From Alicyclobacillus contaminans DSM 17975 (GTDB lineage Bacteria > Bacillota > Bacilli > Alicyclobacillales > Alicyclobacillaceae): a stretch of 64,000 nt of DNA. The DNA is taken from positions 1 through 64,000 of the forward strand of contig NZ_AUCA01000009.1 of assembly GCF_000429525.1 (NCBI RefSeq), given 5' to 3'. The position numbers and the translations under genes are program-made. Shown one piece after another: positions 20,410 to 55,072 of this stretch. Each line of letters opens with the position of its first letter. Positions within the stretch are counted from its first letter, which is position 1. The notes below the pieces were generated by a model, which was not told the DNA's origin, searched no databases, and saw nothing but the letters and a program-made list of their open reading frames with translations.

Positions 20410-21264
20410 TCAGAAGTTCGCCATCGCAGCGCCGAGGAGGGTTACGCCGCCGCCAAGCCATGACCAGGCGGAGACCTGCTCATGCAGCAGAAGGATGCCG
20501 AACACCACGGCCCAGACGGGGAGCAGGTTGATGTACGGGGCGGCACGGCCAGCCCCCACGCGTTTGACGCCGACCGTCCATGCCAGATAGGCCAGGACGG
20601 AGGCGAAGGTGCTCACGTACGCAACGGATACCCAGGCCCATGCGGTCATGTGAATCTGGTTCGCATGAATCGTTCCGATACAGGCGAGGGCGCTGAACAA
20701 CGTACCGTACACTGCCGCTCCTGCCGTCATTAGCAATGAGTCCAGCGCCTTTCCGTACCGCTTGCCAAGGACGGTGTACAACCCCCACGCGATACAGGAC
20801 AGCAGAATTTCCAGGTCGCCCAGCAAAGAGCCGCGTGGGCTTCCCCCATGCTTGCCCTGCACCAGCAGGATGACGCCCGCGATGGACACCAATGCGCCCA
20901 TCCAGGCTCGTCCTTTGACAGGCTCCTTCAGCAGCAGCTGCGAGAATGCCAGAATCGCAATGGGAATCCCGGATGAAATCATACCGGCGCGGGAGGCGCT
21001 GATATTCTGCAGTCCGAGGTACGTCAACGTGGAGAAGGCGAAAACCCCCAGGAAACCGAGCAAGGCGAACGGCTTCCAGCACCGCATCAGTGGAATGCGC
21101 TGTTTGCGAAGCAAGAGAATGATGATGAACAGCACACTCGAGATGGCCCAGCGGACGGTGTTCAACAAGACAGGGGGCAGCGCGGTGCCGAGAAATCGGC
21201 CGCAGATGTAGTTGCCTCCCCACAGCATGGTGGCCAAAATCAGAAGTCCAATTCCCCGTCGCAC
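20410..21264 (-). CDS. EamA/DMT-family transporter
   Basis: A 284-aa membrane protein with ten predicted helices in two EamA repeats. GTG 21264 is the start, preceded by AAAGGA at 11 nt. Repeat 1 begins ATMLWGGNYICGRFLG; repeat 2 begins near CIAWGLYTVLGKRYG at about residue 165. Members export metabolites or amino acids, and the substrate is unknown. It lies downstream of the dienelactone hydrolase gene on the same strand, with an intervening GC hairpin. Confidence 0.9.
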   Translation of the reverse strand: MRRGIGLLILATMLWGGNYICGRFLGTALPPVLLNTVRWAISSVLFIIILLLRKQRIPLMRCWKPFALLGFLGVFAFSTLTYLGLQNISASRAGMISSGIPIAILAFSQLLLKEPVKGRAWMGALVSIAGVILLVQGKHGGSPRGSLLGDLEILLSCIAWGLYTVLGKRYGKALDSLLMTAGAAVYGTLFSALACIGTIHANQIHMTAWAWVSVAYVSTFASVLAYLAWTVGVKRVGAGRAAPYINLLPVWAVVFGILLLHEQVSAWSWLGGGVTLLGAAMANF

Positions 21265-21308
21265 AAGGCCATCATTCCTTTTTTTCAGATTGCGATCCGC
21301 GCGATGGC

Positions 21309-21323
21309 GGGGGCGAAGCCCCC
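21309..21323 (-). terminator. GC hairpin after the dienelactone hydrolase gene
   Basis: GGGGGC (21309-21314), GAA loop, GCCCCC (21318-21323). It lies 22 nt beyond the hydrolase stop on the minus strand. There is no T-run immediately after it, so it may be a weak terminator or an RNA-stabilising stem. Confidence 0.4.
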
Positions 21324-21344
21324 ACCACCTTCACGCCTTCCGAC

Positions 21345-22166
21345 TCATTCCGCGCCCAACTCGCGGTTGAAGAAGGCCAGTACTCGGGCGAACGCATCGC
21401 GCGCGGCGCGCGGATGATAAGAAGCGCGCGTATCGTTGAAAAACGCGTGGTGCGCGCCTTTGTACACGTGGTACTCGAACGATTTTCCGGCTCGTTTCAT
21501 GTTCTCCGCAAAGCCGGGGACCGCGTCGGTGATGCGCGGATCGAGCTCGCCGTAGAAGCCCATCACCGGGCATTGAATCCGCTCAATGGCCTCTGGCTGC
21601 GGTGCGTTGCCATAGAAAATGGCGGCTGCGGAAAGCGCCGGATCTTCGCAGGCCAACAGTCCCGACAGCGCACCTCCCATGCAGAATCCGACGGAGCCCA
21701 CGGGCTGTCCCTTGGAGCCTTCATAGGTATCGCGCAGATGGCCGGAGGTCGCTTTGACCTGGTCGATGTACAGGTCCATCTTCAGCCCGCCGAACAGGGC
21801 GCCGAACGTCTCACGGATCTCCGATTGACGGGGTTGCGGCAGCTTCGCCAGGGCGGCGTTTCGCTCCTCTTCACTGTGCCAGGCGGTGGGCGGAACACTG
21901 TCGAGGAACGTTTTCACAGCGGCAATCCTGTCTGCCCGGAGCGCTTCCGGCCGCTGCCCGTCCTTGGCATACAGATCTGGCGCCAGCGCGACATACCCCG
22001 CCTGCGCAAAGCGCCGCGTGATGTCCTGGATGTGTTCGTCCACGCCCCAGATCTCCTGAATCACCACCACCGCCGGCAGCGGTTCGCGCGTACCCTCCGG
22101 AGCGGCCAGATATCCGAGGTACTGGTTGTCCGAACCGTATCGAATCCAACCTGTCTTCAAGCCCAT
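21345..22166 (-). CDS. Dienelactone hydrolase family protein
   Basis: A 273-aa alpha/beta hydrolase. Two ATGs lie close together (22172, 22166); 22166 is preferred because GGAGGAGG lies 7 nt upstream of it. The family triad is visible: nucleophile cysteine near residue 162 in VGFCMGGALSG, aspartate in GFYGELDPRI near 212, and histidine in KGAHHAFFND near 243. Another family mark is VVIQEIWGVDEHIQD. Dienelactone hydrolases open lactone or ester bonds; many bacterial members have unknown physiological substrates. A 24-codon Cys-rich frame ends 2 nt before this start, suggesting coupled translation. Confidence 0.9.
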   Translation of the reverse strand: MGLKTGWIRYGSDNQYLGYLAAPEGTREPLPAVVVIQEIWGVDEHIQDITRRFAQAGYVALAPDLYAKDGQRPEALRADRIAAVKTFLDSVPPTAWHSEEERNAALAKLPQPRQSEIRETFGALFGGLKMDLYIDQVKATSGHLRDTYEGSKGQPVGSVGFCMGGALSGLLACEDPALSAAAIFYGNAPQPEAIERIQCPVMGFYGELDPRITDAVPGFAENMKRAGKSFEYHVYKGAHHAFFNDTRASYHPRAARDAFARVLAFFNRELGAE

Positions 22167-22168
22167 CT

Positions 22169-22243
22169 TCATTCCTCCTCCATGGCGTCGCAGCCGCAGA
22201 TGTCACTGCAGCAGCAGGTTTCCTTTCCGCACCGTGGACACAT
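22169..22243 (-). CDS. Cys-rich 24-residue peptide coupled to the dienelactone hydrolase gene
   Basis: ATG 22243 is preceded 8 nt upstream by a perfect AAGGAGG (22252-22258). The frame encodes 24 residues with seven cysteines: it begins MCPRCGKETCCCSDICGC and ends in three glutamates. Its stop at 22171-22169 is 2 nt before the hydrolase ATG, and the hydrolase ribosome binding site lies inside its last codons. The strong site and cysteine spacing (CxxC, CCC, CxC) suggest a real metal- or thiol-binding peptide or a regulatory leader peptide. I do not recognise a family. Confidence 0.6.
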   Translation of the reverse strand: MCPRCGKETCCCSDICGCDAMEEE

Positions 22244-22497
22244 GGTCAAAACCTCCTTCGCATTGCCGCATCCCCACAGGAAATCCATCCTTCGAGAGCC
22301 GAACCGGTTTCATTATAAACCACCGGGCGGCAGTGAATCTTTTTCGTGCATGCCGCGCCAAAGTTTGATATGGTATAAAAATATAAATATACACAAAGGA
22401 TTTTCGCGCATTCGCCGCTTCAGCGCGGTGCTGTGTAAACGTATAGAAACCTTGGTTCGGGTTGTCCTGCGACGACAGGCACAATGGAGGTGCAGCG

Positions 22498-23951: not shown

Positions 23952-24236
23952 TCAGCAGGTGGGGGGGCCGTTCAGAATCAAAAAGCCCGCTTCGTCTTCG
24001 GCGTCCAGCCACTCAATGGTGATATCCTCCAGCAGATGCGCAATCTGCTTGGCGTATACCAGGGACACCCCGTGCACCTCCACCTGTACATCTGACCGAA
24101 AGCGGAGTGTCGTCCATTCGATGGACAGTCCAGCGCCACCACAGGCCGGCGTGAATACAATGCGCGCCACTTCATCCGGCGCTTCCACCTGATGTTGAAG
24201 GAACTGCTGGCGCGCGCGATCTGTGATGGCCATCAT
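23952..24236 (-). CDS. HesB/IscA-like iron-sulfur biogenesis domain protein
   Basis: A 94-aa protein from ATG 24236, 7 nt after GGAGGG. The fold is suggested by AITDRARQQFLQHQVE, then IVFTPACGGAGLSIEW, and the C-terminal tail LNGPPTC. Canonical IscA/SufA carry three cysteines (one internal and a C-terminal C-G-C). Here an internal ACGG and a single last cysteine are present, so it is closer to the HesB-like proteins of Firmicutes than to true A-type carriers. A role in iron-sulfur handling is inferred. It is divergent from the fumarase gene, whose product uses a 4Fe-4S cluster. Confidence 0.7.
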   Translation of the reverse strand: MMAITDRARQQFLQHQVEAPDEVARIVFTPACGGAGLSIEWTTLRFRSDVQVEVHGVSLVYAKQIAHLLEDITIEWLDAEDEAGFLILNGPPTC

Positions 24237-24337
24237 GGGCAATCCCTCCGGCGTCCAATGTTACGTTCATTGTATCATACGGGACATATCGGCTTCGGCC
24301 TGACCCGCGTGCCTGCCGCGATTTCGTCGGTGGTCGG

Positions 24338-54702: not shown

Positions 54703-55072
54703 GGGGGCGTTTTGGATTCGACGGGGATTGTTCGAGCATGAACGGCGGGTCGTGGGGCTGCGAGGCCACGTAAAAAACGCGGATCGAAATTAACTGGCAA
54801 AGCTAAGAAGAGCTTCAACAACAACCTCGCCCTGGCTGCCTAATTGGCTCCAGGCCGTTACCTTGTGATGGGTCCGTGATCACCTGGTGACGTCAACGAA
54901 ACGGACTGGTTAATCGCTGTGCTCGACGGCGGTTAACGAGAAAAACGAGCTCACCTGCAGGCAAGCGTGTGCATCCGCGTGCCGCAGGGACAGGACAATA
55001 GATGTACTACACCCGTAGAAGTTCATGTAGCGAGGTCTTCGGACGCGGGTTCGACTCCCGTCGCCTCCACCA
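54703..55072 (+). ncRNA. ssrA: Transfer-messenger RNA
   Basis: About 370 nt. The 5' end GGGGGCG pairs with the 3' CGCCTCC to form the acceptor stem, followed by ACCA at 55069-55072. TTTTGGATTCGACGG and GGGTTCGACTCCCG are the conserved tmRNA 5' and T-arm sequences. The reading frame for the tag resumes at GGC 54796 and ends TAA 54841-54843: tag (A)GKAKKSFNNNLALAA. The C-terminal LALAA is the degradation signal recognised by ClpXP-type proteases. B. subtilis has (A)GKTNSFNQNVALAA, so this tag is one residue longer and more basic. It works with SmpB and RNase R. Confidence 0.97.

Follow-up and report, generated by a model that had tools for sequence, protein, structure and literature searches.

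Upstream of a dienelactone hydrolase (DLH) gene of Alicyclobacillus contaminans DSM 17975 lies a micro-ORF of 24 codons, seven of them for cysteine, and the question is whether it encodes a protein in its own right, one that works together with the hydrolase, or a leader peptide that controls it. The window, i.e., the whole stretch of DNA that was analysed, has a length of 64,000 nucleotides. The features of the locus are the following.

22312..22317, minus strand: possible -10 element TATAAT, seen by eye, with no good -35
22258..22252, minus strand: ribosome-binding site AAGGAGG of the micro-ORF, spacer to the ATG 8 nt
22243..22169, minus strand: Cys-rich micro-ORF, 24 codons and TGA (ATG at 22243, TGA at 22171..22169)
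22179..22174, minus strand: ribosome-binding site AGGAGG of the hydrolase, within the final Glu codons of the micro-ORF, spacer of 7 nt to the ATG at 22166
21345..22166, minus strand: DLH family protein, 273 aa (Pfam DLH, 2.1e-52)
20410..21264, minus strand: EamA-family transporter (Pfam EamA, 7.2e-49), 80 nt downstream of DLH

The layout that a sequence-only reading had described was present in every detail: 24 codons with seven Cys (arranged as CPRC, CCC, and CGC, the CCC being encoded by TGC TGC TGC), AAGGAGG 8 nt before the ATG (spacer TTTTGACC), a stop 2 nt before the DLH ATG and, as that reading had also proposed, a ribosome-binding site for the hydrolase within the final codons. The frame of the micro-ORF is open further upstream to an ATG at 22288 (39 aa), which has no comparable ribosome-binding site. 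An alternative DLH ATG at 22172 overlaps the stop of the micro-ORF (ATGA) and lies only 1 nt past AGGAGG; the predicted start at 22166 fits the length and the N-terminus of the relatives. The TATAAT was absent from the output of the promoter scan. To estimate chance, 2297 small-ORF start positions (15-60 aa) were counted in the 64 kb window. At least six bases of AAGGAGG were suitably placed at five of them, and only the micro-ORF among these five is Cys-rich. When the window was shuffled 100 times with an order-2 Markov model, no ORF of up to 39 aa combined at least six Cys with such a site. The ribosome-binding site and the Cys content together are not the product of chance, in agreement with what had been supposed for the strong site. 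An Rfam search of the window matched only the tmRNA gene (54703-55072, plus strand), an ordinary one with a tag peptide ending in NLALAA.

The hydrolase belongs to the DLH family (178.3 bits in Pfam against a cut-off of 21), its nearest solved chain is 3f67_A (6.2e-31), and its nucleophile motif is GFCMGG, the pattern G[FY]C[ML]GG occurring in all 37 DLH proteins examined. The linkage of peptide and hydrolase was followed in 41 genomes of the family, which we take to be the Alicyclobacillaceae, a set that includes the source genome and Alicyclobacillus kakegawensis NBRC 103104 (G021). A DLH match at E ≤1e-3 was obtained in 38 of the 41 genomes. The gene is full-length in 36 relatives (E up to 1.6e-99), and the match of G006 is a short weak piece. 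When the DNA upstream of these 36 full-length genes was read, the micro-ORF was absent from every one, and most of them have their own ribosome-binding site right before DLH. Cys-containing upstream frames in seven relatives (L014, L015, L025, L028, L029, L031, and L033) were rejected as versions of the micro-ORF, being without a comparable ribosome-binding site, Cys pattern, or end near the DLH start. A search for the same micro-ORF before related hydrolases was the check that the sequence-only reading had named. Its outcome, 0 of 36, leads us to reject a conserved linkage. A. kakegawensis and G040 carry both peptide and DLH, at a distance of 13 kb on one contig and of 2.9 Mb, respectively, and G016, the one further genome from the genus, has no DLH and no convincing match to the peptide. 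From these comparisons, the place of the peptide before DLH seems particular to the source genome. The 20 nt before the micro-ORF best resemble the DLH leader of G040 (14/20, a likeness for much of which the shared ribosome-binding site accounts), as if, speculatively and with nothing made to depend on it, the micro-ORF had been inserted behind an old DLH start.

Homologues of the peptide were sought in six frames of the 41 family genomes at E ≤10, which returned 21 rows in 18 of the genomes. Four rows fell below 1e-3: the source copy itself and, at unrelated loci, copies in G040 (2.9e-7), A. kakegawensis (2.8e-6), and G020 (8.2e-4). The sequence-only reading had not anticipated such conservation away from DLH. 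The remaining 17 rows (E 0.115 to 3.56) were dismissed as chance, since they have no such pattern or lie inside other frames. The G040 copy is an intact, stand-alone ORF of 24 residues with a ribosome-binding site (GAAAGGAG). The A. kakegawensis copy is an intact ORF of 58 residues, of which residues 1-22 are the module and the rest is zinc-ribbon-like, with CPVCG and CRNCG. The G020 copy is a broken version of this fused form: its frame is disrupted close to the beginning, and other residues have replaced one Cys of the ribbon and two of those in CCC. The conserved module reads C-x-R-C-G-K-E-x-CCC-x-D-x-CGC-D, and all seven Cys together with R, G, K, E, D, G, and D are invariant in the three intact copies, the only ones known. 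Between the window and G040, six of 18 aligned codons are identical, ten differ synonymously and two non-synonymously; since the changes are mostly synonymous, with 11 base changes at third codon positions against two each at first and second positions, the protein appears to be under selection. The 18 codons aligned with A. kakegawensis gave six identical, eight synonymous, and four non-synonymous (base changes 4/3/11).

Of 59 genomes from the order, four have the module. The same four were its only carriers among 398 genomes of a class sample, and the source genome was the only one in a phylum sample (1/398). Searches of viral contigs, plasmids, and phages did not find it, a second search of phages giving five weak matches only (E 0.2-0.4). 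A scan of genome contigs for the Cys pattern recovered A. kakegawensis alone among 100 pattern stretches; a match in G763 was rejected, its spacing agreeing and its sequence differing. The broken frame in G020 and the small number of intact copies suggest that the bacteria can do without this gene and that it may be subject to decay. To judge from these sequences, the micro-ORF very probably encodes a real peptide that is conserved, but rare.

The homologues were also examined for what surrounds them. The sizeable genes behind the G040 copy, one for an aldo-keto reductase and one frame that resembles Spo0E by eye, are on the opposite strand, and a tRNA-SeC was called just in front of it, in divergent orientation (L059:3424-3520). 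Selenocysteine readthrough of the G040 stop was considered on account of this tRNA and rejected, as the residues past the stop are not conserved. In A. kakegawensis the next gene behind the copy is convergent and a PhzF-like gene lies in front (by eye), and the G020 copy lies near integrase-like or recombinase-like frames (by eye). With no same-strand gene close behind either intact homologue, the peptide would need no downstream gene, which argues against its being, in general, a leader.

A search with the ribbon part only found 13 places in 7 of the 41 genomes at E <1e-3, and 17 rows in 10 genomes, four of them weak, at E ≤0.1. Several copies are broken, including the one copy of the source genome (G000:C12:41150). 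Directly before the ribbon in G020 and G024 is an ORF for a Cro/C1-type HTH regulator with LWPLEE at its end (Pfam HTH_3 2.1e-13 for that of G024). The same ending is visible before the ribbon in G007, and traces of it were seen by eye before the fused copies of A. kakegawensis and G020. A dispersed pair is thus recognisable, namely, the LWPLEE regulator followed by a protein of 41-43 residues with two C(P)XCG pairs.

L104:2388-2730, L105:2131-2503, and others: loci of the HTH regulator/ribbon pair, many copies broken

The ribbon protein had no convincing family in Pfam, NCBIfam, or PHROGs, and its best sequence match among solved structures was ribosomal protein L37Ae, a weak one (0.0086). 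In a structure model of the 58-residue fused form, the ribbon was predicted with moderate confidence and the Cys module with low confidence (block means 61 and 54), so the model is neither for nor against a fold of the Cys module. A fold search with it gave no match at E ≤0.001, and the best rows were, in our reading, mostly zinc-ribbon chains.

Sequence likeness places the peptide near two groups of small Cys proteins, with membership that would be borderline or fail. The first group comprises the CPxCG-related small zinc-finger proteins, which include the Haloferax C(P)XCG micro-proteins and are described as tiny, mostly unannotated, and endowed with CPxCG and a second Cys pair (PMC2253796, PMC11241148). 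The peptide has CPRCG at residues 2-6 and a second Cys pair, CSDIC, at residues 12-16; unlike those proteins, it has 24 residues against a size maximum of 50-70, and seven Cys with CCC and CGC. Its two patterns have 6 residues between them and lie 7 positions apart against the 7-40 residues given for that family (PMC2253796), so that the counting convention matters. The fused form of A. kakegawensis shows the pattern of the CPxCG family. The second group, the Family 8 copper metallothioneins of fungi (Neurospora, Agaricus), is close in size and Cys number, with 26 residues and seven Cys, and differs in spacing: CXXC-X4-CCC-X3-CXC in the peptide against X2-CXC-X5-CXC-X3-CXC-X2-C-X3 (PMC4755600). 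A CCC motif is recorded for a Yarrowia metallothionein (PMC13107397). Homology to Family 8 was not detected. The peptide has the general make-up of a metallothionein (small and Cys-rich, seven Cys in 24 residues, with CxC and CxxC), and no metallothionein or other family matched it in Pfam or NCBIfam at E up to 1. The earlier remark that no described family was known for it is borne out by Pfam, NCBIfam, and PHROGs, none of which supplies a family in support of metal binding either. Literature searches returned nothing joining dienelactone hydrolase with a cysteine-rich small protein or with a leader peptide. For Alicyclobacillus, the query with cysteine-rich small proteins yielded only spores as a vaccine vehicle and the one with dienelactone hydrolase only steviol glycosides; the one with metallothionein gave no such term in title or abstract among the matches listed. 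The peptide would be a rare, undescribed variant within the small metal-binding proteins, with a putative function.

What the peptide does next to the hydrolase could be explained in several ways. In a cysteine-responsive leader, the ribosome would stall at CCC when cysteine is short and thereby alter DLH translation. Contiguous Cys codons, a stop 2 nt before DLH, and a DLH ribosome-binding site inside the ORF all suit such a device; the contiguous codons alone do not make the micro-ORF an attenuator. To our knowledge, DLH is not an enzyme of cysteine metabolism, which we count against it. Conservation extends to non-Cys residues, the 173-nt leader RNA folds no better than its shuffles (z 0.57), the intact homologues lack a close same-strand gene behind them, and the ORF is missing at all 36 related DLH genes, where a leader of this type has a conserved downstream gene. 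The published regulators of this type, the polycysteine short ORFs of mycobacteria, resemble the micro-ORF in being short, just before a gene, and rich in contiguous Cys codons, but they are reported to be leaderless and to precede the operon that they regulate (PMC9031893, PMC9094748), whereas the micro-ORF would not be leaderless, with AAGGAGG 8 nt ahead of the ATG, and has homologues that stand alone. The proposal of tuning by cysteine supply is therefore not supported, and we regard it as quite unlikely. The same 36 genes weigh against a dedicated partner that would protect the hydrolase or load it with metal, for example, by shielding its nucleophile Cys from oxidation or metals. This had also been proposed, and the tight coupling in the source genome and the Cys nucleophile in GFCMGG speak for it, but the family relatives have the same nucleophile motif and no peptide at DLH, and in A. 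kakegawensis and G040 peptide and hydrolase are far apart. We consider this role, which did not hold up, very unlikely.

A decaying fragment is another reading: a mobile zinc-ribbon gene such as that of A. kakegawensis would have landed before DLH, where only its N-terminal end is left and is being lost. It would agree with the dispersed and often broken ribbon family and with the frame-broken G020 copy near a recombinase-like frame, but the window copy retains its seven Cys, start, stop, and excellent ribosome-binding site, and the same stand-alone form of 24 residues occurs in G040, with changes of the purifying type, so that we judge decay unlikely. The CPRCG pattern and the position directly upstream in the same orientation recall Brz, the haloarchaeal protein encoded directly upstream of bop (PMC2253796), and thus a small zinc-finger regulator of the neighbouring gene. 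With only 24 residues, two Cys patterns spaced at or below the published limit, and no conserved neighbour to regulate, such a regulator is highly improbable.

On balance, we lean slightly towards the micro-ORF encoding a free-standing protein of about 24 residues that acts in trans as a metal-thiolate chelator, its co-expression with DLH being local and not a conserved partnership. A trans-acting metal- or thiol-binding protein is favoured over a leader or a DLH partner because the peptide is conserved elsewhere, with mostly synonymous changes and no gene behind it. A stretch of 24 residues that contains CxxC, CCC, and CxC and in which Arg, Gly, Lys, Glu, and Asp are conserved fits a metal-thiolate knuckle, and among the roles suggested earlier metal or thiol binding appears the best fit to the conserved Cys pattern. 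One or two ions of a soft metal, zinc or copper, would be held by the seven thiols, the peptide serving as a zinc-knuckle or metallothionein-like chelator. The module would be used alone in the source genome and G040 and, in A. kakegawensis, at the N-terminus of a small zinc-ribbon protein. The relatives of the ribbon being dispersed and standing behind HTH regulators, the gene to which the module has become joined in at least one lineage is a dispersed, phage-like one. A broader proposal, which we hold as doubtful, is that of an ultra-small metal-thiolate module moving between loci of the Alicyclobacillaceae, alone or N-terminal to the zinc-ribbon protein. Such a module would be undescribed; having 24 residues with seven Cys, it would equal the smallest metallothioneins in size, and the relatives of its zinc-ribbon protein lie directly behind phage-type HTH regulators. 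If it binds metal, the peptide would rank with the smallest metal-thiolate proteins that bacteria encode, of a kind missed by gene finders, and it would be easy to synthesise and test. The locus also suggests that a strikingly placed micro-ORF can be a real conserved gene without a functional tie to the gene that follows.

For the source genome only, the free-standing chelator would have come to sit between a promoter and the DLH gene. One transcript would then carry peptide and hydrolase, and the terminating ribosome would pass straight to DLH, this translational coupling giving co-expression. Peptide, DLH, and EamA transporter (20410-22243, minus strand) could form a single three-gene transcript. 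Upstream of the micro-ORF and divergent from it is a PLP-dependent decarboxylase (by its Pfam families), which we take to be of the lysA type. In G016 a different gene, presumably mannose-6-phosphate isomerase, precedes the lysA-type gene, and the EamA relative sits on a different contig from lysA. Positions 23955-24242 (minus strand) of the window encode a protein of 96 residues in which a likeness to HesB/IscA is seen by eye (FTPACGGAG ... NGPPTC); it had no Pfam match at 1e-3, and a relative is present in G016.
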